Source: Charina bottae
Lineage: Eukaryota; Chordata; Lepidosauria; Squamata; Charinaidae
Length of the DNA stretch: 64,000 bases
Reading direction: 5' to 3'
Assembly: GCA_023362775.1 (NCBI GenBank)
Contig: JALMGJ010000018.1
Location: forward strand, 21,619,105 to 21,683,104
Below the pieces are notes generated by a model. That model did not search any database. It saw only the letters and a list, made by a program, of their open reading frames with translations, and had not been told where the DNA came from. The position numbers and the translations under genes are program-made. Below, piece after piece: positions 6,790 to 60,000 of the stretch. Positions within the stretch are counted from its first letter, which is position 1. Each line of letters starts with the position of its first letter.

Positions 6790-7150
6790 TCCTCCTCATT
6801 TCCACACAACAACAACCCTGTGAGGTGAGTTGGGCTGAGAGAGAGTGACTGGCCCAAGGTCACCCAGCCGGCTTTCATGCCTAAGGCGGGACTAGAACTC
6901 TCCTGGTTTGCCATTGGCTCCTTCCTAGGGCTGAGAGGGAGGGACTGGCCCAAGGTCACCCAGCCGGCTTTCATGCCTAAGGCGGGACTAGAACTCACAG
7001 TCTCCTGGTTTGCCATTGGCTCCTTCCCAGGGCTGAGAGACAGTGACTGGCCCAAGGTCACCCAGCCGGCTTTTGTGCCCAAGGCGGGACTAGAACTCAC
7101 AGACTCCTGGTTTCTAGCCCGTTGCCTTAACCACTGGACCAAACTGGCTT
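6790..7150 (-). repeat. Sauria-type tRNA SINE with internal tandem units, reverse orientation
   Basis: On the minus strand the tRNA-like head is at 7150-7080, with 'ggttaaggc' and 'gagttctagtcccgcc' (B-box-like). The body 'ctgggtgaccttgggccagt' follows, repeated three times with starts 96 and 102 bases apart. The overlapping open frames with repeated 'GLELSWFAIGSFLGL' or 'ALGMKAGWVTLGQS' peptides are translations of this repeat, not genes. Confidence 0.85.
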
Positions 7151-24567: not shown

Positions 24568-24745
24568 CAGGGGTACCCAACCTTTTGGCAGCAGGGACCG
24601 GTCGTGGAAGACAATTTTTCCACGGACCGGGGGGGCGGGGTTTGCAGGTGGGAGCCAGTTGTGCGGACGGGGGGCGGGGTTTGCAGGCGGGAGCCAATTG
24701 TGCGGATGGGGGGCGGGGTTTGCAGGCGGGAGCCAATTACTTTTT
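24568..24745 (+). mobile_element. hAT fragment with internal 39-bp tandem repeats
   Basis: The 5' end 'caggggtacccaacctttt', followed by 'cagggaccgg', 'gtggaagacaatttttccac' and 'ggaccgggg', resembles a widespread vertebrate hAT family (OposCharlie-like; assigned from memory). It is followed by about three copies of a 39-bp unit ('gcggggtttgcaggcgggag', cytosines at 24636, 24675 and 24714). No 3' terminus was identified. A short CA tract lies at 24790-24815. Confidence 0.6.
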
Positions 24746-38362: not shown

Positions 38363-38931
38363 CCGTTTGCTAGAGCTTGACACAATCCTCCAAATATATT
38401 ATGCATCCGGTAGACACAGTGATGATGTCAGACATCATGACTTCATCACCCCAAGGATGTGAATTATATAAATTGCACAATTTACATCATTTGCACAACG
38501 ATCGCATGACAGAGGTGATGTCACTGCCCCACCCCAGGTCTGTAAAGGTGCTTTTCAGGCCAAAGAAATAAAGAAAGAAAAATATTCATTCCAGGTTCAG
38601 TTGACTCACGCCGGTGGCCCCGGCTGGTAGCAATGGACTTGCTCTTTCCTTCCCAGCCACACGAGGCCGTGAAGAGGCAGAGGTGCAGATACCAGAAGAC
38701 CAAGAGCCGGAGATCTTTCTCAGCAGGGGCCTCCTGAGAGTGGCTTGGTGAGTCTAAAGCGGAGACACTGCTCAGGTGAAAGCAGGACCTCTGGAGGTCG
38801 CCATCTCCACTGAGAAGGCTCCTCCCAAGCTGCAGTTGGTGAAAGACCTCCCCAGGCAGTCTCAGACGATTGGTGGCCTTTGAGGGCTGACCCCTTTCCT
38901 GCTTTGGCCTGATTCCACCCAAGGGAGAGGG

Positions 38932-39027
38932 TTACGGCAGAGTGACCATCCGGCTTGTGACGCGTCCTGCCACGAAGCGGCATTTGTGCCCCAGCCCAGA
39001 GAATCGTTCGTTCATGGTCACGCTGGT
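38932..39027 (-). CDS. UIF-like gene exon 9 (last coding)
   Basis: Acceptor 'cttctttag' ends at 39028; the stop TAA is at 38934-38932. It encodes 31 residues beginning TSVTMNERF, matching FYTTD1 TGMTLNERF, followed by a basic stretch containing RFVAGRV and ending MVTLP. FYTTD1 ends with RFVTVG. It starts in phase 0. Confidence 0.85.
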   Translation of the reverse strand, partial: TSVTMNERFSGLGHKCRFVAGRVTSRMVTLP

Positions 39028-42000
39028 CTAAAGAAGAAAGACAAGTTGCATGTCTAGGAAGAAGCTAAGAGGAAACTCTCCTGAACACGAGCCAGATGTC
39101 CTTCTGGGGGAACGCATGCAGGATCCCTCCCTGAATGGGAATCAGCATCATCCAACCTTCCCCATCCTGAAGTCCTTCCTCTGGGACTTCAACTCCCAGA
39201 ATCCTTAGCAAGCACAGCCATGCTGGGGAGGCCCCAGGTGGAGAAACCTGGTTCAAACTCTCAGGACTGGACCATCGGTCATATCCAGTCCCTTCTTCAC
39301 AAGGCTGCACAGCCTGGGCTTGTAGATTTGGATTTTAACCTCAGCTGGAAAAGTATCTAGGGGCGTCTAACCCTCTCCTTTCATTCCAGGGTCCAGCTCC
39401 ATAGATGTCTTGAGGGGTCACGAGGGAGGGGATCATCCCTGGCCTGGGAGAGTTCTCAACCTGGTTAGCCATAGCACGGAAGTTGAATCTTAGAGGCACT
39501 CCTCTCGGCTGGCGGTGGGGCGGTGGGGTCTGGCTGTTCCTCCTCCTCAGGAAGGGGCGCCTGGGTCCCGGCCTGTGAAACACCCACAACATGGAAAAAC
39601 CCCAAAAGGGAAGGAAAGTGGACGTAGCCCGTTTCCCCCGCTGCTCTGATCTGCCAAGAGGTCACCTGAATCTTTCTTGTAGGTCTGACACAGGATTCGC
39701 CTTTCCCAGCTACAACATGCTCAAAAGGCACTTCTACCATTTTTTAAAAATGTACAAAAGAGGGAGGAAAGAGGAAAGAGGGAGATTTATCCCAACTTCT
39801 GGCCATGTCAAGTTGTTAACAGGCTACAGCAATGTTTCTCAACTTTGGCAACTTGAAGACGTGTGGACGTCAACTCCCAGAATTCCCCAGCCAGCATGAA
39901 GTCCACACGTCTTCAAGTTGCCAAGGTTGGGAAACACAGGGCTACAGGGATGTGAAAGGGCAGGCTGGCCTATCTGCTGATTCTTCTGGCCTTTCAACGG
40001 CCAGGCCAAGCCATCCTTTTGGCTCTTTCTTCGCCTGCTGACGCACCGAGGGGCTGCCCGGTGGGGTCAAAGCAAACAAGCATTTTCAAAGGTCCAAAAT
40101 CCTGGTCTGCGTGTGTCGCAGATCACCTTTGGTGAGACTGTTGCTTCCGAATGAAAATTCCCTCCTGCAGATCCAAGATCTCACAGTCCGGTACCCAGAA
40201 ATCCAAGTGCCCAAGGAGGGGACGGAGGCTGTAGGGAAGCCAGAACACTTACCCCTTGAAGTGGCTGGCCTGGGGGTTAGACACAGAGACGGTCAGGACG
40301 GCCCCAGAAGTGGGCTGCGTTTGCCACCTGCCAGAAAAGCAAAGCCAGTCACTTTTCAGTTAAGACAGTCTCCCTTTTTTCCTGAAGAAAAGGGTATCTT
40401 CTTTGCTATTTACCTTCTCATCCTTGAAAGTTTCCCCTCCATTTTGGACTTGATTTGCTGTTGGGGGAACAGGAACGACAGGCATAGAAGTGAAAACAAG
40501 CAACATGCTTACAGGAAGAGAGGGCTGGCTACCAAGGAGGAGGCTAAGGGAGGAAGCTTCCTTGGCACCTGAGCGGGTCAATGTTTCCCACAACCACCAG
40601 CTTCTATTACTTAAAAAGAATTAGACCAATGTATTGAGGAATGGGGCCTCCATGTTCAAAGGCAGTCTACCGTGAGGCAGCAATGGTTGAAGACAAAGAG
40701 CAGGAGATTGCCCCGTCTCAGCATTTCTAAAACAACAGTAAGCAAGTAGAATTTTGACCTCATCCACAACTGTCTGTGAGTCTCCAGCAGAGGAGAAAAA
40801 AGTTATTCAACAGGGAACCCCAGGCAGACTGCTCTGCCTCAACTCCTCATCTGTAAAATGGGTAGATAATGAAGATCAGCTTTTCAGGATTATTGCAAGG
40901 AGTGGAGGAAAAGGAAACATGCCGGTGGGAAAATACTAAACGTGGCTAATTGTACACAGTTTCACTAATTGCTGTATGGATTTTTAGACTGACTGAAACC
41001 AGAGGGAGAGGCCGGTAAATTCCTCTTCATTTGGTGAATCTGCCACCCATGGCAGAAAAGGAGGCAAAGGCTGGGGAGGGGGTGGGGAGAGAGAAAGAAA
41101 ACTGACCCGTTTGTTGAAGCTGAACCTGGATTGGCTCTGGAAGAAAACCGGTGTTCGTTTTAATTGGAAGGGCCTGTTATGGGCAGGAAAAAAGGGCCTC
41201 CAATTAATAAATTTATTAATAAATTAATAAATGCAGCCATAGGTGCCGTTCCCAGGTCTGTAATCCAGTGTTTCTCAACCTTGGGCACTTTCAGATGTGT
41301 GGACTTCAACTCCCATCTGAAAGTGCCCAAGGTTGAGAAACACTGCTGTAATCTGAAGTGAGGTGTGCACGAAGTTTGTTATTTGAGGTTGCAGAGTGTC
41401 AGAGTTCCCAAGATTTGGAGGCACACTGACATGCTCCTTCGGTCTCCCACCGGGGCCTCAAATTCACCCTCTCCCTGCCGCCTCGCCTGGACACCGAAGC
41501 CTCCTCGGAAAACCAACTGGAGGCTCAGAGACGGCCCCGCGCCCCGCGTTTAAACCAACCAACCTCCGAAATGGCGGAGACGACCCTGCAGCTTTGAAGG
41601 CTTCGGCTCTTGCAGGCGCTTCTGGCGGGGGGCCGGCGGGGGCTCCATCGCGGTCCCTGCCCGGGGGGACTTTCCCTGCCTTGTCCTGGAAAGCAGACAC
41701 AGCAGCTGACCGCCTTCCCTGCTCTGGCCTCAGCAGGGCTGGGTTTCGGCAACTCAGAGCCCCTTGGGGAGGGGGGAGGGGGGCCCTGCTCCTACCTGCT
41801 GGGCAAAGGCTGCCCGGTTGAGGGGGCTCCTGCCCTGCATCTGCCCAGCTGCTCTGGGCCCTGGGCCGCTCATCCTACTCCAGAAGGGCTTCCGGGTCCA
41901 TTGCGGCTTCCTAAATCCTCTGGGAAATCTGCTAGATCCTAAAGGAGCACCACCTTTTGATTGGGGTTCCTGGGGTAGAATACAAATTCTCTACCACCCA

Positions 42001-43557
42001 CCCCTAGATGTGTTAATCCACAGTGTTTGCCCCCCCCCATCCCGTCGTCCCCACCCTTTGGCAGAAATTGCTGGAGGCCCCAAGACTTCATCCTCTTCCA
42101 TCTGCAGGCCAGTTTTTCAAATGAGAAATGAGTTTTTCCCCAATCAGAGGGAGACCTTCTAAGGGCATTCACACATGCAAAGCCACCCCGAGCTTCACTG
42201 AATCCAGTCTTCAGTTCCCCCAAGGGGAGTCCCCAAACTGAGCCTGGGTACAATGGCACGCTCCTGGCGCTGCTCCCCAGTACCCACTTGCCAGCAATTC
42301 GGGACTGATATGCCACCTCCTTCAGCCCTTCCCCAGGAGGGCACCAGATTGGGGAGGCCTCTCTCCGACTCTCTCCCTCGGCCCACCTGGCAGGGCTGGT
42401 AGGACCCAGCTCAGGAATCGGGGCCTCCTGTTGCCGGAGGCAGCGTTCCCGTTCTTCAGCTGCTGCCTCCAGGGGTTGTTCCGCTGCGTCCGCCCCTTCT
42501 GGTTGCGCTTGATGATGTCGTCTAAAGAGGGCACAGACACAGCCCTTGCACTCCTGCGCCACCTTCCCCAGGGCACGCGCAAGGCAGCTCAACAGAAAAA
42601 CCCGGCAAACCCCCGGCCAGAGCGGTAAAGCGGGTTGCAAGGGGTCACTTACTGTACCCGGTGCGTTAAAAACAAAAATCCTCGCGTTTCAGTGGACAGG
42701 ACGCTTACCGGAAGCAAGAGCCGACACCAAGGGCATCGCACCCCAAGGATTTCAAGAGCTTGGGCGAAGGGAGAGGGGACCCGGTGTGATTCCTTGCCCT
42801 GTTACACTAGTACAGCCAGGAACGTTAACCCTCTCCAGGAACGCTCCTGGAACGGGATGGAGACGCTTTGCCGCCGCCTTGTTTTCCCACTCCCCAAACC
42901 AGCTCTGGCAGCCGCCGGGCCCGGGCCGGGAGATATTTCCAGCCGGCTGACTTCACGGAGGGCCAGGATGTGCCCGGCGGATCCCGTGCCAGGGAAATGC
43001 CTGGCCGCACGGCTAATCCCGCTCAACGGAGGCGCTGGCAGGGCGCCGGCTCTATTTCTGGCCGTTGGAGCTTGGAAGCGCGACGGGGAGGGGGGGCGAA
43101 ACGCCCCTTTGCGGAGGGGAGGGGGGAGACCGAAGCGCGGGGACGGAGGGGGGGGGGAGGTCTAGAAGAAGAGGCAGAAAAGTGAAGGGGGAGAACAGCC
43201 GGTGACGGGGTTGAAGTGTCTGTTTTCGGGGGGGGGGTGGCTTCGGCCGGAGTTAACAGCGTGGGAAAGGACAGTTTTGGGGTTCCGGAGCACTGCGAGA
43301 ACGAACTTTCCTTGACCCCCCCCCCCCCATGCTGGCTCCCACCGGGCGGCTGAAGGGCAGTCGGAGGGTGTCTCAGCTGTGGCTGCCCCACCCCGCCTTC
43401 CTTATCCGGTCCCCAAGCGAGAAGGCAGTCGGCGCCCCCCGAAACGCAGCCCCCGACCCTTTCCCCGGGGGCGGAAATCCTCACCCAGAGACAGATCGAT
43501 CTCCTCACGGGGGGCGCCGGCGCCCGGCTCTTGCTCCCCGGCGCCTGGCACCTCCAT
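38932..43557 (-). CDS. UIF/FYTTD1-family mRNA-export adaptor, nine coding exons; candidate LUZP4 ortholog
   Basis: Predicted 288-residue protein assembled from nine exons (43485-43557, 42387-42521, 41796-41938, 41564-41685, 41107-41173, 40414-40457, 40253-40327, 39461-39572, 38932-39027). All have GT-AG sites and compatible phases, and the total is 867 nt including the stop. Residues 20-29, IDLSLDDIIK, are a UAP56/DDX39-binding motif as in ALYREF and UIF. Residues 196-213 (WQTQ..SGAVLTVSVSNP), 242-257 (PRGVPLRFNFRAMANQ) and 258-266 (TSVTMNERF) match FYTTD1's C-terminal blocks in order, and SPLNR in exon 3 matches FYTTD1 SPMNR. FYTTD1 is about 318 residues, so this is essentially full length. 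Such proteins link spliced mRNA to UAP56 and NXF1 in the nucleus. The gene is divergent from LRCH2, in the place of human LUZP4. It differs enough from FYTTD1 to be a paralog rather than FYTTD1 itself. Exon 4 is the least certain. Confidence 0.85.
39461..39572 (-). CDS. UIF-like gene exon 8
   Basis: Acceptor 'gtttcacag' before 39572; donor CAG|GTTGAG after 39461. It encodes a Pro/Arg-rich segment (PRRPFLRRRNSQTPPP) and then PRGVPLRFNF, close to FYTTD1 PKGVPLQFDI. It completes a codon split after two bases and ends in phase 0. Confidence 0.88.
39830..39939. mobile_element. hAT-type palindromic MITE with perfect 8-bp TSD
   Basis: In intron 7 of the UIF-like gene. Ends 'caatgtttctcaact' and 'ttgggaaacacag' are mutated, but the 8-bp duplication 'ggctacag' (39822-39829 and 39940-39947) is exact. 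Confidence 0.9.
40253..40327 (-). CDS. UIF-like gene exon 7
   Basis: Acceptor 'gcttttctggcag', donor AAGGG|GTAAGTG. It encodes WQTQPTSGAVLTVSVSNP and then QASHFKG; FYTTD1 has WRTSTTNGGILTVSIDNP. This is the strongest single similarity block. It begins with the last base of a split codon and ends after two bases. Confidence 0.9.
40414..40457 (-). CDS. UIF-like gene exon 6 (44 nt)
   Basis: Acceptor 'cctgttcccccaacag', donor GAGAAG|GTAAAT. The small exon encodes QIKSKMEGKLSRMR plus a split Arg. Only this phase reads through into the WQTQ block without a stop or shift. It corresponds to FYTTD1 LDDVVAKRTRQ before WRT. Confidence 0.8.
41107..41173 (-). CDS. UIF-like gene exon 5
   Basis: Acceptor 'ttttttcctgcccataacag', donor AAACGG|GTCAGT. 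It encodes PFQLKRTPVFFQSQSRFSFN then KR, comparable in place and character to FYTTD1 TRQATFLFRRGLK (aromatic and basic). It completes a codon split after two bases and ends in phase 0. Confidence 0.75.
41266..41345. mobile_element. Very short hAT MITE hairpin with perfect 8-bp TSD
   Basis: 80 bp in intron 4 of the UIF-like gene. The arms 'cagtgtttctcaaccttggg' to 'ctttcagatg' are exactly complementary to the other arm. The target duplication 'ctgtaatc' (41258-41265 and 41346-41353) is exact. The arm variant 'ttgggcactttcagatg' is private to this copy and present in both arms. Confidence 0.94.
41564..41685 (-). CDS. UIF-like gene exon 4 (frame uncertain)
   Basis: Acceptor 'tctgctttccag', donor CGGAG|GTTGGT (weak). 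Its length satisfies the phases of both neighbours (starts phase 0, ends after two bases). In that frame it encodes a Pro/Ala/Gly-rich segment with no resemblance to FYTTD1. The next frame reads a basic Lys/Arg/Gln/Pro-rich peptide (APRQKRLQEPKPSKLQGR) with more typical codon choice. The exon is probably real, but its reading frame or exact limits need transcript evidence. Confidence 0.5.
41796..41938 (-). CDS. UIF-like gene exon 3
   Basis: Acceptor 'ggtggtgctcctttag', donor CAGCAG|GTAGGA. It encodes a basic, aromatic segment (SSRFPRGFRKPQWTRKPFWS) ending GRSPLNRAAFAQQ, comparable with FYTTD1 GISPMNRPPLSDK at the end of its third exon. It completes the codon split in exon 2 and ends in phase 0. 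Confidence 0.8.
42387..42521 (-). CDS. UIF-like gene exon 2
   Basis: Acceptor 'tgtgccctctttag'; the exon begins AC GAC ATC ATC AAG and supplies the second half of the UAP56-binding motif (DDIIK). It then encodes a basic region (KRNQKGRTQRNNPWRQQLKN). The donor is CTGCCAG|GTGGGC. The break inside the motif, after one base of the first Asp codon, is also how I remember FYTTD1 being split. Confidence 0.88.
43485..43557 (-). CDS. UIF-like gene exon 1 (start codon)
   Basis: The ATG at 43557 has strong Kozak context (gagccATGG) and is the only in-frame ATG before the motif. The exon encodes 24 residues: a short Gly/Ala/Pro/Glu-rich leader, then EEIDLSL. The donor CTGG|GTGAGG leaves one base of the Asp codon, which exon 2 completes. 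It lies in a CpG island (about 43.0-44.9 kb). Confidence 0.87.
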
Positions 43558-46094: not shown

Positions 46095-47068
46095 AACATA
46101 CCCAATACTCCTTCCTCCTCCTATTTTCCTCACAACAACCACCCTGTGAGGTGAGTTGGGCTGAGACAGGGACTGGCCCAAGGTCACCCAGCCGGCTTTC
46201 ATGCCTGAGGCGGGACTAGAACTCTCAGGCTCCTGTCTATGAAGGTTCTCAGTCATCCAGGTGGAATTGTCTGTAGCTTGAATCATGTCAACTGGATTTC
46301 TCTTTTCTTAATGGAAACGTTTTGCTCCTTATCCAAGGGGCTTCTTCAGTCTGAGCAAAGTTGGTAAGGGAATCCTAAACTAGGAACATATTTAGGATTC
46401 CCTTACCAACTTTGCTCAGACTGAAGAAGCCCCTTGGATAAGGAGCGAAACGTTTCCATTAAGAAAATAGAAATCCAGTTGACATGATTCAAGCTACATC
46501 TCAGGCTCCTGGTTTGCCATTGGCTCCTTCCTAGGGCTGAGAGAGAGGGACTGGCCCACGGTCACCTAGCCAGCTTCATCCGTAAGGCGGAACTAGAACT
46601 CTCAGTCTCCTGGTTTGCCATTGGCTCCTTCCTAGGGCTGAGAGAGAGGGACTGGCCCACGGTCACCTAGCCAGCTTCATCCGTAAGGCGGAACTAGAAC
46701 TCTCAGCCTCCTGGTTTGCCATTGGCTCCTTGCTAGGGCTGAGAGAGAGTGACTGGCCCACGGTCACCTAGCCAGCTTCATCCGTAAGGCGGAACTAGAA
46801 CTCTCAGTCTCCTGGTTTGCCATTGGCTCCTTCCTAGGGCTGAGAGACAGGGACCGGCCCAAGGTCACCCAGCCAGTTTTCGTGCCTGAGGTGGGACTAG
46901 AACTCTCAGTCTCCTGGTTTGCCATTGGCTCCTTCCTAGGGCTGAGAGACAGGGACTGGCCCAAGGTCACCCAGCCGGTTTTCGTGCCTAAGGCAGGACT
47001 AGAACTCTCAGTCTCCTGGTTTCTAGCCCATTGCCTTAACGGCTTAACCACTAGACCAAACTGGCTTG
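46095..47068 (-). repeat. Sauria-type SINE with about seven body units, split by an insertion
   Basis: On the minus strand the tRNA-like head ('tggtctagtggttaagccgt', 'gagttctagtccc' style) is at 47068-46990. The body unit is then repeated; equivalent 'actagaact' positions on the plus strand are 46592, 46693, 46794, 46896 and 46998 (spacing 101, 101, 102, 102), with further units on the other side of the insertion 46236-46498. Open frames across it are repeat translations. Confidence 0.85.
46236..46498. mobile_element. Palindromic Penelope-like insertion 2, 13-bp TSD
   Basis: Same unit and fold-back as insertion 1, inserted in the SINE array. The host sequence 'tctcaggctcctg' is duplicated at 46223-46235 and 46499-46511. 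Its two arms share variants absent from insertion 1 (gccccttggat for gctccttggat; ccattaag for ccactaag), so the arms are copies of each other. Confidence 0.85.
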
Positions 47069-47329: not shown

Positions 47330-48067
47330 AAGGTGAAATTCGGGGTGCCTGAAAGCGCCGTCGCGAGTCCCAAAGCAGACTCCCCGCACGGGGAGGAACT
47401 CCTGCCGGGAACCCCTCCAGCAACGCAGAAACCAACCGCCGCCGGGATTCCCGGGTCCTTCCAGCCGCCAGCCCCGCCCACTCATCACCTGCAGCCCCGC
47501 CCCACCGAGGCCGCGGGGAGGGGCCTGGGCTCGCGCCTGCGCGCGAGGTGCGCCCGTCGCCGCGCCTGCGCAGAGCCGGCCGCCGCGAGCATTGTGGCGG
47601 GGCGGCGGCGATGGCGGCCGGGCAAGGCGGCGGTCCCACGGCCAGCAGCGACGGCGGCGGGGGAGGCGGCGGCGGTGGGGGCGGCGGCCCCGCGTCCTCG
47701 TCGTCCCTGCCGCCGCCCGGCCCCCCGCCCGCCCCGGCCCCCCCGCCGCCGCCCCCCCCGCCGCCGCCGCCCTGCGCCGAGCCCGGCCCGGCCTTCCTCG
47801 GCCCCGGCCCCGGCCTGGGGCTGCCGGCCCACCTGACGCTGCCCTACGCGGCCTGGGGCGCGGCCGGCGGCGGGGGCGGCGCGGGGCTCTCTACCGGCGG
47901 CGCCGCGGCCTCCGCCGCCGCTGCCGCCGCCGCCCCCTCGCCGGGCCGCAGCCTGGAGAAGACGCTGGAGGAGGCGGGCAGCTCCGGCCTGCTCTGCCTC
48001 AGCGGCAGGAAGCTGCGCGAGTTCTCGGCCGCCGCCGCCTACGACCTCAGCGACACCACGCAGGCCG
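47330..48067 (+). promoter_or_regulatory. LRCH2: LRCH2 CpG-island promoter and exon 1 region
   Basis: GC-rich island covering the 5' UTR and exon 1. Two identical 'gcgcctgcgc' sites (47533-47542 and 47562-47571) read GCGCAGGCGC on the other strand and fit the NRF1 consensus. The start codon follows 40 bases after the second. No TATA box. The exact transcription start is not known. Confidence 0.6.
47611..48067 (+). CDS. LRCH2: LRCH2 exon 1
   Basis: The ATG at 47611 follows ggcggcg and gives MAAGQGGG, as in human LRCH2 (MAASQGGG). 152 residues: Gly run (about 15-26), Ser/Pro-rich and poly-Pro tract (about 28-54), Gly/Ala-rich stretch (about 82-108), then the conserved SLEKTLEEAGSSG and the first LRR-like segment ending DLSDTTQA. 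The donor GCCG|GTGAGC leaves one base of an Asp codon. The low-complexity tracts are GC-rich and probably length-polymorphic. Confidence 0.95.
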
Positions 48068-51000: not shown

Positions 51001-54000
51001 TGTTTGTTTGTTGAATTTCTATAACCGCTCATCTCCCCCTCAAGGAGGGACCTTTAAGGATTAGAGGACCTTTGTGTAGAAGATGCTTTAGCTTAGTGTT
51101 TCTCAGCCTTGGCAGTTTTAAGATGTGTGGAGTTCAACTCCCAGAATTCCCCAGTCCCCATTGAAACTGGTGGTAGGTGGTTAATGTCACAGAAGATGCT
51201 ATAGATACCTGGATGTCATCTTTAAGAGGTGTGCAAGCTGGCTGAGAACAACTCTTACAGCATCTCAGCTCAGACAGTGTACCTGTCAACAACTTTATGT
51301 AGTATTGGGGATATAAGGAAGAAGCCCATGGTTCGAAGCTAAGAGACTGAATGCCTGCAGAAGAGTGCCTCCTGTCCTCCACTGGGTAGGCAATCCAAAA
51401 AGATGGCATAGTTGATGTTGGCGAAAAGGTTGCATGGTGCCCTGGAGATTTAAGGAGGTCACATTTCCCTTGTCCCATTTCCAGAATATAAGTTCAGGGT
51501 GACAGATGCAATGTCCTAAATAATTCTGCTATGTAGACTTTGTGTCGTAATCTCTGCTTGCTATCCTTCCACTGTATCATCGTTTTGCATAACCCTTCCA
51601 GCTATTCCACACATCACAATAAGCCAGGATTGTGGCTTGTGATGATAGAGCAAAGATGCTGATAGAGCAGAGATGCCTTGGGCCACACAACCTCACCTGC
51701 TTCTTTTTACAATAAAGAAATAGAGAAGCTTTTCTCCAGGTTTTCTTAGAGTTTGTACTGGGGTTATTTGCCCATGTACGCCAAAAACAAATCCTGACTT
51801 TGAACCTGAGCAACCAGGAAAGATACATTCCTTCTTGTAAATGAATTAATACACGCTTTCAATTTCACAGCTGAGCATGGTGCAAATGACAGGTCAACAA
51901 TGCCGCTTGTTAGGCTCCAGTTTTGATTGTAAGCCTGGGCAATATATCCTTATTGAAGATTCTGCTGCTTCTGCCCATGGCAGATAAACCAGGAAGGAGA
52001 GAAATTAATGCTGAAGATTCAATGGATTTTCTACAACACCTGTGATTAGTATATATATTAAAAAGTAGCAGTGTCTTAAAGGCTAATAAATGTTTCATGG
52101 CATTAAGATTCCTGCAGTGCCACAAGACTCTTTGTGTTTTTTTTACAACAGACTAACACAGCTTCTCCTCTGGATATTGATTAAAAATGTTTCTCTTCTC
52201 TCCATCCTTCCCACCCCCTTGTGTTAACTGAAAGTGATAGAGTTCAGTTGAAACAGGGAAAATCCAGTCTAGATTTACAGTTTCCTCAAACAGAAAGAGG
52301 CAACCTTGAACTTAATGCACAAAGCTGTAATTTAGCTGCTTAAGCTCCTTTCACACCCCAGAAGCTTTCCGGCATTATCTGCATTTGGAACAATTATACT
52401 TTGTAATTAAAATGTCAGATTTTGGAAATGACATCTGCCTCTTCACCCATGGCGGACAAATTCAGCCTTTTGTACAGAGTTAGGTGGGATATTCTTGTTT
52501 TCAAGCTAAATCCGCTGGGCTGTTTGCCAAAATGTTACTTTTAAGTACTATTTTAAAAAATGATGAACAATCATTGTTGACAATAATTGACAATCGGTAC
52601 TTGTCATTGGTGTTCTCCCACCTCCACTCTAGGACCTGATCTGGAAGAAAACAGATTGGCGATTTTGGAAAGTGCAAAATTATACTTCCTTTCCCATTTC
52701 TTCCTGCAGCGAACAGGGCTTCTCTGAGATTGTAACCCTTCCTTTGCCGGCCTGTCAGTGCGAAGCCCGGCTAATGAACACGATAGCAGAGCTGTTATTA
52801 ACATGTGGTAAAAGTAGAATTAGGGTCTCAGAGCTGTGCTGGTGATCAGCAGACACAGGTTCTGATTGAGTGGAGCGCCCCATCTCTGCTGGGGGGGGAG
52901 CCAGGGTATGAAAACATGCATTTGAAGGAGAAAGGGAGTGCAGTTCTAGAAGGCTTTGGCTTGGTGACTCCTGAAGGCTGGCATCCTGGCCAATTAGCCT
53001 GTGGTGAGAAACATGCTGCCTTTGTAACTTCAGAGCTTTCTTCTTTTGATTTAACCACAATCTAGTGAGGGCAGCTCTGCAGCTGGTAGGCCAGCCAGTG
53101 GGAAATGCTTTGCTGTGTTCAACCACAAACACACTGAGTTGTCATGGTAGGGGTCCCTGGCTGTTGAACAGATTCTTGACTAGGCTCAGGGAGGAGGGAC
53201 AGCTGGCCAAACTCTCGGACTCATCATGACTAACCCTAAACTGTTGTGGCTGTTTCCCACTAGGTAGCTTTTACTCAGCTGCTTAACAACAAACTGGAGA
53301 GCCAGTCTGGTCTAGTGGTTAAGGTGCTGGGCTAGAAACCAGGAGTCAGAGAGTTCTAGTCCCGCCTCAGCCCTAGGAAGGAGCCAATGGCAAACCAGGA
53401 GACTGAGAGTTCTAGTCCCGCCTTAGGCATGAAAGCCGGCTGGGTGACCTTGGGCCAGTCACTGTCTCTCAGCCCTAGGAAGGAGCCAATGGGAAACCAG
53501 GAGACAGAGAGTTCTAGTCCCGCCTTAGGCATGAAAGCCGGCTGGGTGACCTTGGGCCAGTCACTGTCTCTCAGCCCTAGGAAGGAGCCAATGGGAAACC
53601 AGGAGACAGAGAGTTCTAGTCCCGCCTTAGGCATGAAAGCTGGCTGGGTGACCTTGGGCCAGTCACTGTCTCTCAGCCCTAGGAAGGAGCCAATGGGAAA
53701 CCAGGAGACTGTGAGTTCTAGTCCCGCCTTAGGCATGAAAGCTGGCTGGGCGACCTTGGGCCAGTCACTGTCTCTCAGCCCTAGGAAGGAGCCAATGGGA
53801 AACCAGGAGACTGTGAGTTCTAGTCCCGCCTTAGGCATGAAAGCCAGCTGGGGGACCTTGGGCCAGTCCCTGTCTCTCAGCCCAACCCACCTCACAGGGT
53901 GGTTGTTGTGGTGAAAACGAGGAGGAGGAAGGAGTATTGAGTATGTTTGCTGCCTTGGGTTATTTATAAAAATAATAAAGGCGGGATATTAAATAAATGA

Positions 54001-57000
54001 ATAAATAAATAACAAGATAATACAAGTGTCATTAATGCTAGGAGTTGTGTTGCTTGGAACTTAGATTGCAGAAATTATAATAGAAACCCTAAGCAAGCAG
54101 ATCTTTTCTATTACAGACTAAACCTTTCCCAGTTAACATCAGTAATGTGCATGTTACTTTTCAGAAGTAAGCCTAATCATGTTAAATAGAACCTACAAAC
54201 ACATTTGCATGTGAAAGGTGCAATTTTATACATACTTATTAGGAAGTAATCCAATTGAATTCAGTGACTTTCTCCTGAGCTTACATGCACATGGGATTGT
54301 GCTATAAATTTGCAAGATCTTTTTCCCCCCCATTAAATGTATGTGCCTAATTATATTATTGCTGCTGGTTTATTTCTTGCTGCTCATCACTTCCTGAATA
54401 CTAAGATTAAATGGATTTCTGATTCTAATCCGGGTGGCTCATACCTTTGGCACCATGGCAAAGAAATAAATCTGAACTTAATCATTTGAATGAAAACCCG
54501 ATCAAGCCAATTAGGCTTGAGAACTCACAAAGATGTGTTCAGATATTCAGAAGCTGGAAGGCTGTCTCTGTAGTGAGAAATGCACAGTATTATGTGCTGA
54601 AGGTTTTTGTAGAGCTGATAGATCTAGAGTGCAAAGATCCAGGATCATTTGATTGCAGCAACAAGATACACGGGGGATTTATTCTTGGCACCCATGCATG
54701 TCTAGATTTCTGTTCCCCTGATCTCTAGGTATAACTTTGGTGACATTAATATGCAGAATTTCAAGAATTAAAGAATATTTTTCCTATTACTGCCTGTCAG
54801 TCTCCATAAACTAGAAAGCTCTTTGAGTAGAACGTTTGACTAGACACGTGGACCTTACTGAGCAACACTTTTTCTGCAGCTAGGTTCCCCCCTTCCCAAT
54901 TTTAATAGTTTTTCATAGCCACTCAAGGGTACTCACAATAGTCGCATACAGTTGAATAGATACACCCCCCCAAAAAAAGTTGGGAATCCAACAGTGGAAG
55001 AAAGTAGCATGTTCATGCAGCAACCTTTGTGTCCCAGAGGACCCTGAAGGTGCCCTGTCTCCCCCATGAAACTGCCAGCATTCAAAGACCGTAATCGGAG
55101 AGATGATGCTCATCTCTCAGGTGTGTGGAAGTTCTGTCTGCTGGTGGAGGTGCTCCATCAAGGAGACGCTTCTTGGTGCCACTTGAAGGCCGCCTTATTC
55201 TACCTGGCATTTTAAAGTATTTAGGTTTGATATTAATATATTCTAAAAATGGTTTTTGCCCATTCTTAGAACTTAGAATATCTAAGTTCTAGATAGAGCA
55301 GCTAGAGTCAAGTATGGCCAATAAATCTTTCTCATAAAAATATTCTAAGGTTTAATGTTTCCCAAATTCATTGGTATCTCAGTAGGAGGATTACTAAATG
55401 GTATTTTTTATTGCATACAGTTTTGTAAGTGGTATTTCCAACCCCATACAAGGCCCTGGTTCTTAGTATGCAAAGCAGAAAAGTACCCTGACGGCTTCCC
55501 CTTTTTTTCTGGCCGAATGAGTGTTCGCAGTGGTCTGCAGACAGGGAAGGGGAAGCTGTGACTTTGGGAAGGATTAATCAGCCTTCCGTGCTTGCTGTTC
55601 ATGTGACAACAAAGAGCACAAAGGGATGAAGGCAAAGAAACCCGGTTCTGTACCTCGTATCTGTATAATGTTTGCATTCATCTGTGCTGCTGTCCTCTGG
55701 TTCTTGCGCTTTCTTTTTACCTTTGTTTGGAAAGGCCTACTAAATCAGCAGGCTGATGGTGGAAATATTTGCATGTTGAAAAGAATAGCTTAAAAGAGCT
55801 GAATTTCTCCAAAGACAATATGGCTATTTCTCAGGCTTGTTTTATTGGGCACTAGATTGCTGGGAGAGGATGCTATAGAGCAGCAGCAGCAGCAGAATAT
55901 TTTCATGATATTGTGCGTTGTATCTACTGCACCATCCAGGCACACAGTATTCAAAGGGTTTTGCAAGAAAGACGAGGGGTCCCTGCCTCAGCTGCAGAGG
56001 GACCAATGAGGTTAAGCAGAAATAGGGTGGCCAGATGGTTAGGCTCCATTCAGTTGGAAGGAAGATTAAAGGGCCGAGATGGCCTTTGCTGGTCAGGAGG
56101 AATCGGCTTCTACTTGAGGAAAATGGATGGTTGGGGGAAAGCGCTGTAGTGAATTCTCTTCTTCCCCTCCTAGAAGGGCAGGTCATGGTAAGCTTCTAGC
56201 TGTGCCTACTGCATTCTAGCAGAAGGTAACCCCTTCCCAACTTATAGCCTGTAATTCCAACCATAGAATTGCTTTATAAAATCAAATTACTGGTGGGTCA
56301 TCCACACATCCTCTGGACCTCCTTCAGGAATAGGACACTTGATCGTTAACCAGAAGATGAGCCCTGGAAATACCTTCTCCTGCTTTCCCTTTTTAGACCT
56401 TTCCAAGAACAGATTTACTGAAATCCCTCCAGATGTGTGGCAGTTTGCGCCGCTTGAGACATTGAACTTGTATCACAATTGCATCAAATCTATCCCTGAA
56501 GCCATTAAAAACCTACAGATGTTAACATATCTCAATATCAGGTAGGTACAGTTTCCTTCTCATTGCTTCACATCAGAGGGAGCCGCCTTGCACAAGATGA
56601 CCAGGAAAACATTTGCCACTCCATGCTGTTTACAGCTCAGAGGTTGCCAAAATGTTAAATTGTATACGGAAGTCTACCTTTGATCTTGATATTTCTCTTT
56701 CACAATATGGTGTTTGAGATGCAAAAGCAATCACTTGGTATTTCAGGTTTCGGTTTCTAGGAGTTAAGTGAATGCTGAAAGAACATTGCTAATCTTGCCT
56801 TCTTGTGGGAAAACAGCTGAACTGGCCGCAGTACTAGAGAACTATTTTTTTTTCTCAGTGAAAGGAATGTTGTTCTGTATGTTGTGGCTGCTACTTTCAA
56901 ATACGCCATGAAAGTGAAAATCATGAGTTCATCTCATGCTACATACATCTAAATTAGCAGGAGAGGAGGAAAAACTAAGGCAGTTGGGCAGGAGAAAAGA

Positions 57001-60000
57001 TCATAGAAAAGTGAAGTTGCCCCTCAGATTCACAAAAAGAGTGCAGGGAGGAGAGGAAAATGTGGGAAGACCTTATAAAGACCTATTCTCCCTCTGCACC
57101 CACCCACCCACCCCCTATTGTATATAGCTATTGTAGGTGTTGAATATTCTGTTTCCGCATGTGCACATGAGACGAAACAGCATTGCCAGAAGGGCTTTTT
57201 ATATATTGTGATCTACCAGCAGGGCTTGTAAAAAGGTAAAGGTTCCCCCCGCACATTTGTGCAGTCGTGTCCGACTCTAGGGGCCGGTGCTCATCTCCGT
57301 TTGTTAGCCGAAGAGCCAGCGTTGTCCGAAGACGCTTCCACGGTCATGTGGCCGGTACTGAAGCACTAAATGCTGAGTCAATTTAAATGGAGCACATAGT
57401 GGTTTTAATTGCTTCTGCATCCCAAAGCAGGAACAATTAATAGCTGCTGGATATTAACCCCAAATGTCTTTGTTTCTCTCTAGTCGAAATCTCTTATCTA
57501 CATTGCCAAAATACCTGTTTGATCTGCCACTGAAAGTTTTGGTTGTCAGCAATAATAAGCTTGTGTCTATTCCTGAAGAAATTGGAAAATTGAAAGACTT
57601 AATGGAATTGGTATGTGTAATTGTTTTATCCTCCTTTATATCCTTAAACCATCTAGTCCTCAGTTTGGCTTCACCTTTGTTTGTCAACAAACTGAACTGC
57701 AACCTGTAGAAAAATTAATTGCCTAGAACAGTAATGGGCAAGCTCCGGTCTTGTGGCCCCAAGTTCATAAAAATCTCATCTGCTTGATTTATTTATTTAC
57801 TTATGTTCAGTCAATGTCTGTTTACAAAACAGAGTGCAAGCTTTTGAGTTTCCAAGAATGCTTTGTCTTGCAAATTAGGTGAGTTTTTTGTTTTTTTGCT
57901 TTGGTGTGTGTGTGTGAGAGAGAGAGACAGACAGAGACGGAATACCATTGAGTTAGTTTTGACTCCTAGTGAATGCCAGGATAGGTCCATACAGTTTTTT
58001 GGCAAGATTTCTGGAAGTGGTTTGCCCTTGCCTTTTTCCTAGGGCCGAGAAAGCGTGTCTGGCCCAAAGTCATCCAACTGGCTTCATGCTTAAGGCAGAA
58101 CTAAAGTTCACCTCTCTTAGTTTCTAGCCTGATGCCTTAACCACTACACCAAACTGGCTCTCTGTTATTGCATTATAGTTACTATAATATTGAACTTTTT
58201 GTCTCACATCCTGCCCCTTCTGCCTGCTTTCTCCTCTCCTACTGATACAGTTCAGGGTTAATAATATTCAAAGGATGTTTTACATCGTAAAAGCTTCATT
58301 TGTGAGACAGGTATGGAATATACGGATCAGTAGTTCTACAAGAATTCTCATTGCCTGGTTCTGTGCACTACAAGTACAGAGAAAGGCCTGGAGAGAAGAT
58401 GTGAAGACCTTTCAAGAGAGGTTGAAGGAGTTAGCTGTGTTTAGCCTTGCAAAAAGTCAGTTGAGGGTGAAAGTGATAGCCCTGTTCAAAAACCTAAAAG
58501 ATGATGATGTCGAAGCAGGTCAAGATCTGTTTAGAATTCAGGATACAAGATACTGCCAGAAGGCAGGTTCTGAGTTTAAGAGCAGCTTGGTTGTGGAACC
58601 AAGAGCGATGGCGGGCTGCCCGTCACTGGATGTGCTAAGCAGAGGCTGGAGAGTCACCTGTGGGAATTGCTTTCATTTGGGCTCCTGGGGGCTGAACTCG
58701 GGGGCCCCAAGAGGCCCCTCGGGCTCTAAGACTCTCTGGCTTATTTATTCCAGCGAGATGCCTTCTTTGAAGGCAGAGCCAAAAACATGTGTTTAAGAGA
58801 ATCCTCCCCTTTCTAGCAAAACTCAGGCGTTTCCTAGCCTCTTTTAAAAAACAGGTCTCTCTCTCCAAGAAGCATATTCCCTTGGTTAAGCCATTCGTGT
58901 CAGGAACCGCTTGTTAAATTTTTGGACATTCTGATTCTCTATTTCTCAACTTAGGATATTAGCTGCAATGAGATCCAGGTCCTTCCCCAACAAATAGGAA
59001 AACTGCACTCGTTAAAAGAATTAAATTTAAGAAGAAATAATCTCCATATGTTACCTGATGGTAAGCAATACTCCATCTTCTCCCAGCCTTCTTTTTCAGT
59101 CATTGAGACACACGTTTTGTAATGTCTGAATCCCACTTTTTTCCTCCTTTATAATTAACAGAATTAGGAGAGCTTCCCTTGGTCAAGCTGGACTTCTCTT
59201 GTAATAAAATCACAGAGATTCCTGTATGCTACCGGAAATTACGTCATTTGCAAGTCATCGTTTTGGATAATAATCCAATGCAGATACCACCAGCCCAGGT
59301 TTGTGAATCGCCCTTTTTTCCGGTTCAGAAGCGCAGTGGGGGCATGGATGGCCTTCAGCTTCTTTCGTCTTCACTCGGCTGCTCTGTGGATCTGTTTGGC
59401 CACGTCATCGGGTGGAAGCTCCTTTTCTGCCTGAGTGCCTCTCGGTGCTCCGTACACCAGAGCTGGAGAGGGGAGGGGCCGCTCTCTGTAAGTTGGGTTC
59501 TGGAAGGTCTCTCCTGAAATCACCAAAGCTGTGGGGAAATGAGCTAGTTTTCCGCTTCACCATCACCACGTGAAGTTGATGAATACGTTGGGCCCCGTCC
59601 GTTGCCCCAGGAACAGATCGGTAGTTTAGGGAAATTTACGTTATGATTTTTCCAGTTGCCCCCGTCCCACACACACATCTGGGAAATGAAAAGGGTTCCA
59701 AAGTTTTCTGTCAACCCACCTGACTTGAATTTTGTGTTGGTGTTTTTTCCTATCTGCTTCTTAACAGATATGCTTAAAGGGCAAAGTACACATTTTTAAG
59801 TTCCTTAGTGTTCAGGCATGCCTCAGAATGGACAAGAAGCCAGACTCTCTGGATCTCCCTTCCCTGGGAAGAAGGATCCCTTCTCAGCCGCTCACAGACA
59901 GGTAAAGCTGCCTTTCCTTCTCAGGAGGTAAAAAACGAGCACTTGTAAACGCTCAGAGCCTGTTCTGAGCCTCACGCCATGCCAGGAACTTCATCACTCC

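Follow-up and report, generated by a model that had tools for sequence, protein, structure and literature searches.

The minus strand of the 64-kb window (the whole stretch of DNA that was analysed) carries a candidate FYTT-like gene at 43557..38932, made up of nine exon-like segments. On the plus strand, an LRCH gene begins about 4 kb away and runs in the opposite direction.

Structure of the candidate gene

The features of the candidate gene are listed from its start codon onwards.

43485..43557, minus strand: exon 1 (coding), in which CCCAGAGCCATGGA holds the start codon; first half of the UAP56-binding motif (UBM), IDLSL; donor TGG/gtgagg
42387..42521, minus strand: exon 2, with the second half of the UBM, DDIIKRNQK, and an arginine-rich stretch
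41796..41938, minus strand: exon 3, arginine-rich, with the SPLNR block AAGQMQGRSPLNRAAF (41805-41852) at its end
41564..41685, minus strand: exon 4, of uncertain end (alternative intron starts at 41560 or 41518, or exon skipped)
41107..41136, minus strand: exon 5, a micro-exon of 30 nt (or 28 nt, from 41134), encoding QSRFSFNKR
40414..40457, minus strand: exon 6, QIKSKMEGKLSRMR; donor AAG/gtaaat
40253..40327, minus strand: exon 7, with the WQTQPTSGAVLTVSVSNPQ block
39461..39572, minus strand: exon 8, with the PRGVPLRFNF block and the weak donor CAG/gttgag
38932..39027, minus strand: exon 9, with the TMNERF block, then the stop codon
38357..38362, minus strand: AATAAA, a likely polyadenylation signal ~570 nt past the stop codon

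The IDLSL and DDIIK halves of the UBM are separated by an intron of phase 1, placed within the first Asp codon of SLDD, and a phase-0 intron follows the SPLNR block. The start codon lies in a good sequence context. The conceptual protein, which is probably disordered over much of its length, is strongly basic (pI 12.0, net charge +37), which fits RNA binding. A preliminary description of the locus had assigned the named motifs to this interval of the minus strand in the order in which they are listed here, and their positions, strand and order were all borne out. The same description had proposed nine exons that join without a frame break into a protein of 288 residues. The nine segments and seven of the eight joins stood, but the exon 4/5 join did not, and the length of 288 residues was not reproduced.

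In the first-drawn model, which used the best-looking exon 4 donor and the first exon 5 acceptor, the 4/5 join was the only one out of frame. The join was in frame with an AG two bases downstream (275 aa), with the weak donor TTG/gttggt (277 aa) or with the donor CCA/gttggt (290 aa), and none of these three models contained an internal stop; skipping of exon 4 also kept the frame (235 aa). Donors were scored with a simple matrix and ranked against all GT sites on the minus strand of the window. Six of the eight donors outranked 95% of these sites, whilst the donors of exon 4 (GAG/gttggt, 89.6%) and exon 8 (CAG/gttgag, 65.9%) were weaker. The exon 8/9 join recreates the Q-T of QTGMTLNERF in the human FYTTD1 sequence that we assume here.

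Past the weak donor, the exon 8 frame stays open for another 39 codons before it meets a stop (39344-39460, minus strand), so that intron retention would yield another C-terminus. Two intronic regions of the gene, at 39.83-39.94 kb and 41.27-41.35 kb, contain short fold-back pairs in which a sequence stands beside its own reverse complement; judged by eye, we take these to resemble a squamate short repeat.

The neighbouring LRCH2 gene

The neighbour, which the preliminary description had missed, was located by tblastn with human LRCH1-4 sequences that we assume to be accurate.

47611..48066, plus strand: LRCH2 exon 1, an open frame, head to head with the candidate gene
56396..59821, plus strand: LRCH2 leucine-rich-repeat exons (56396-56539, 57482-57610, 58955-59059, 59161-59304 and 59765-59821)

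LRCH2 gave the highest bit score at all six matched exons. The exon at 56396-56539 was 91.7% identical to LRCH2, 64.6% to LRCH3 and 52.1% to LRCH4, and 60.0% identical to LRCH1 over a slightly longer stretch; the corresponding values at 59161-59304 were 85.4% (LRCH2), 79.2% (LRCH3), 70.8% (LRCH4) and 60.4% (LRCH1). At the 19-residue exon 59765-59821, LRCH1 equalled LRCH2 in identity (84.2%). The lower LRCH2 identities at exon 1 (35.8%) and at 58955-59059 (65.5%) arise because the alignment enters unalignable sequence, and the bit score is unaffected. A PDB search with an LRCH2 exon returned general leucine-rich-repeat proteins among the matches listed (the best 60 of 128). By the comparison with LRCH1-4, the plus-strand neighbour from ~47611 is LRCH2.

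The start regions of the candidate gene and LRCH2 are marked by two GC-rich stretches, one at 43-45 kb and the other at 47-49 kb (GC 0.66-0.72), and GC content falls to ~0.50 at 45-47 kb between them. What we take to be a BovB-type LINE fragment lies between the two genes at ~45.2-46.0 kb, and may split what was formerly a single GC-rich divergent promoter region. We presume that human LRCH2 and LUZP4 are likewise arranged head to head. In a copy-number table, the human Xq23 order is given as HTR2C ... IL13RA2, LRCH2, RBMXL3, LUZP4, PLS3, AGTR2 (PMC4804090), and a table for human 3q29 lists DLG1, FYTTD1, LRCH3, RPL35A, IQCG and LMLN (PMC4776409). A search of the window, which extends ~38 kb on the far side of the candidate gene, with an assumed PLS3 sequence found no credible PLS3 exon (best E 0.54).

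The window also contains three tandem arrays of a related 101-102-base unit, at 6832-7113 (2.8 copies), 46499-47022 (5.2 copies) and 53366-53883 (5.1 copies). The first and third of these have long open frames on either strand, and the ORFs predicted there are thus spurious. A separate array at 24630-24738 has a 39-base unit (2.8 copies, 95% matches). Repeats in the window were our grounds for taking its source to be a squamate.

Family membership and comparison with FYTTD1 and LUZP4

The spliced candidate matched the Pfam profile PF07078 FYTT (length 310, cut-off 21 bits) with 63.2 bits and an E value of 3.4e-17, and the 235-aa model without exon 4 scored about the same (64.3 bits). When five exon groups (1+2, 3, 4, 5-7 and 8+9) were scanned singly against Pfam, three matched FYTT in an order collinear with the gene: exons 1+2 covered profile positions 16-55 (20.4 bits, E 3.8e-4, just below the cut-off), exons 5-7 covered 199-233 with 22.2 bits, and exons 8+9 covered 249-308 with 28.4 bits. 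Neither exon 3 nor exon 4, scanned singly, had a Pfam match. Five blocks of the assumed human FYTTD1 sequence were used as six-frame probes of the window, and all five had their top match in the candidate gene, the SPMNR probe in a tie at 28.0 with 38865-38912, directly past the stop codon. The UBM, EEIDLSLDDIIKRNQK, is identical to the assumed FYTTD1 sequence at 11 of 16 residues. These matches point to a protein-coding, real-looking gene that is a new member of the FYTT (UIF/FYTTD1) family, and they bear out the FYTTD1-type assignment of the preliminary description.

An origin of the motifs by chance was rejected on the FYTT profile match, the collinear exon-group matches and the five block probes, and a retrocopy of FYTTD1 was rejected given the eight introns of the candidate model. 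A PDB search with the whole protein returned two chains, neither of them meaningful (E 0.65 and 0.73). With the UBM peptide, ALYREF/REF filled four of seven rows (E 0.35-0.92) and bacterial GpsB the other three (E 0.29-0.35), so that this search alone proves nothing. ALYREF (THO complex subunit 4) resembles the candidate in its N-terminal UBM (7znk chain L; the E value of 0.66 is not significant by itself), but the whole-protein PDB search gave no match to it beyond this motif.

The candidate shares with FYTTD1/UIF the UBM, SPxNR, LTVSV/I, GVPLxF and NERF blocks in identical order, a basic protein and an adjoining LRCH gene. Local alignment with the assumed FYTTD1 sequence scored 170, compared with 66 for the best of 1000 shuffles, and the similarity was concentrated in the blocks. 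An ortholog of FYTTD1 would match closely along the whole profile and have LRCH3 as its neighbour. The assumed human FYTTD1 sequence reached 585 bits on the FYTT profile, whereas the candidate reached 63.2, and LRCH2 adjoins here where LRCH3 does in man. On this evidence the candidate is a paralog of FYTTD1, and the earlier proposal that the gene had diverged too far to be FYTTD1 itself is upheld.

LUZP4, also called HOM-TES-85, is a cancer-testis antigen. Our comparison used a human LUZP4 sequence that we assume to be accurate. Residues 51-80 and 238-287 are letter-identical to the portions published in PMC4822317, and two published primers translate to residues 60-65 and 113-118. PMC4344508 describes LUZP4 as an export adaptor, discovered by BLAST with the ALYREF UBM, in which the UBM binds UAP56 and the arginine-rich region behind it binds RNA; the protein binds NXF1, complements loss of ALYREF and, in human, carries RS-H repeats and a leucine zipper. 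A review describes LUZP4 as conserved in vertebrates (PMC5095910).

Five 16-residue blocks common to FYTTD1 and the candidate were scored at every position of LUZP4, with 1000 shuffles for comparison. LUZP4 has kept the first two of the five, in the same order and with similar spacing. The score of the UBM block at residue 24 was reached by none of the 1000 shuffles, and neither was that of the SPLNR block, PSGFKSGQHPLNGQPL, at residue 96 or of a 20-residue version of it; the limits of the SPLNR block were chosen after inspection of the alignment, which makes its shuffle count look better than it should. No match to the three C-terminal blocks was found in LUZP4, where 957, 649 and 916 of 1000 shuffles did as well. 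SLDD and the SPLNR block lie 84 residues apart in the candidate, 85 in FYTTD1 and 75 in LUZP4. In the six-frame window, an SPLNR profile reached the LUZP4 score of 27 at 1 of 127,906 positions, which is the candidate gene, itself part of the profile.

The gapped whole-protein score of candidate and LUZP4 was weak, being reached by 5 of 1000 shuffles, and after the UBM the figures were 56 of 1000 for the candidate and 16 of 1000 for FYTTD1; with gapped scores of 42 (candidate) and 44 (FYTTD1), the candidate shows no measurably greater similarity to LUZP4 than FYTTD1 does. Full-length LUZP4 had no Pfam FYTT match, and its residues 1-119 reached FYTT at a sub-cut-off E value of 0.013, with unrelated families at similar values (0.014 and 0.06). 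Assignment of LUZP4 to FYTT by Pfam was therefore rejected, as below the cut-off.

LUZP4 resembles the candidate in its LRCH2 neighbour (human order, PMC4804090), in the similar spacing of a UBM and an SPLNR-type block, and in the arginine-rich stretch after the UBM. It differs in its RS-H repeats and leucine zipper and in the lack of LTVSV, GVPL and NERF blocks. In man, LUZP4 is expressed in testis and tumours. RS-H repeats and a C-terminal leucine zipper were not seen in the conceptual candidate protein, whose C-terminus carries the FYTT blocks in their place. Should the FYTT form be the ancestral one, their absence makes the candidate look less like human LUZP4 but does not weaken the case for common descent. 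The retained blocks suggest that LUZP4 belongs to the FYTT/UIF family, and the LRCH2 neighbour tells which member of that family the candidate is; taken together, the neighbour and the retained SPLNR block indicate that its human counterpart is LUZP4, which the preliminary description had named solely as a profile for comparison. In the literature consulted, we found no statement of a descent of LUZP4 from the UIF family; the supplementary synteny analysis of PMC4344508 may already show part of this relationship.

Proposed origin and function

We consider it probable that the candidate is a protein-coding FYTT gene, head to head with LRCH2, that is best regarded as the squamate ortholog of LUZP4 in an ancestral UIF-like form. 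That form would comprise a UAP56-binding motif, a basic arginine-rich middle, the SPLNR block and C-terminal LTVSV, RGVPL and NERF blocks. FYTTD1 (by LRCH3) and LUZP4 (by LRCH2) would then be duplicates of one ancestor, most simply through the early vertebrate genome duplications. Human LUZP4 would have kept the 5' part, from the UBM to the SPLNR block, with RS-H repeats and a leucine zipper replacing the remainder. With somewhat less assurance, we favour the broader proposal that LUZP4 is the genome-duplication twin of UIF/FYTTD1, arising from an LRCH-FYTT pair, with the full UIF form in reptiles and a C-terminus rebuilt on the mammalian X.

According to PMC2828547, human UIF binds UAP56 through its UBM, binds RNA although it has no recognizable motif for doing so, and exchanges UAP56 for NXF1 as its binding partner. 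By analogy with UIF and LUZP4, the N-terminal motif of the candidate would dock on UAP56/DDX39, its basic regions would bind RNA, and the protein would pass mRNA to NXF1, as one of several partly redundant adaptors alongside ALYREF and UIF. The combination of a UBM, an arginine-rich stretch, a pI of 12.0 and a net charge of +37 makes NXF1 adaptor the most likely function of the candidate.

The chief rival to orthology is that the candidate is a FYTT paralog at LRCH2, and that LUZP4 is an independent protein that gained a UBM and stands beside human LRCH2 by chance. In its favour are the weak gapped similarity between candidate and LUZP4 (reached by 5 and by 56 of 1000 shuffles) and the lack of a FYTT match to LUZP4 at the cut-off, and a UBM alone has been found in several otherwise dissimilar export factors, as PMC4344508 and PMC5095910 report. 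Against it stand the shared LRCH2 neighbour (human order, PMC4804090) and the SPLNR block, which lies in the same order at similar spacing, was matched by 0 of 1000 shuffles and has a profile score (27) found at a single window position, that of the candidate, itself part of the profile. We regard an independent origin as unlikely.

Two further readings concern the candidate itself. It might be a decaying or dead copy, in which the blocks persist whilst the 4/5 join and the exon 8 donor are defunct; the weak donors GAG/gttggt and CAG/gttgag would fit such decay, as would the out-of-frame state of the obvious 4/5 join. Against this, seven of the eight first-drawn joins hold, the in-frame models lack internal stops, exon 4 can be skipped in frame, and the gene has a good start-codon context, an AATAAA and a GC-rich stretch at its start, so we give decay only a small chance. 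It is still less probable that the candidate is the species' own FYTTD1, diverged or misassigned. In line with that reading, each of the five FYTTD1 blocks tested occurs in the candidate, and their order is kept. On the FYTT profile, however, the candidate reaches 63 bits where the assumed human FYTTD1 sequence reaches 585, and its neighbour is LRCH2 rather than the LRCH3 of the human gene list (PMC4776409).

Vertebrate mRNA export employs several adaptors, the origins of which are unclear, and the main interest of the candidate gene lies in the link between UIF and LUZP4. The place for annotators to search for such genes is beside LRCH2. If the candidate is indeed the reptile LUZP4, then LUZP4 and UIF would form one family, the redundancy of adaptors in human cells would be simply explained by their origin, and an unmodified form would be at hand for studying how LUZP4 shifted to testis and tumours.
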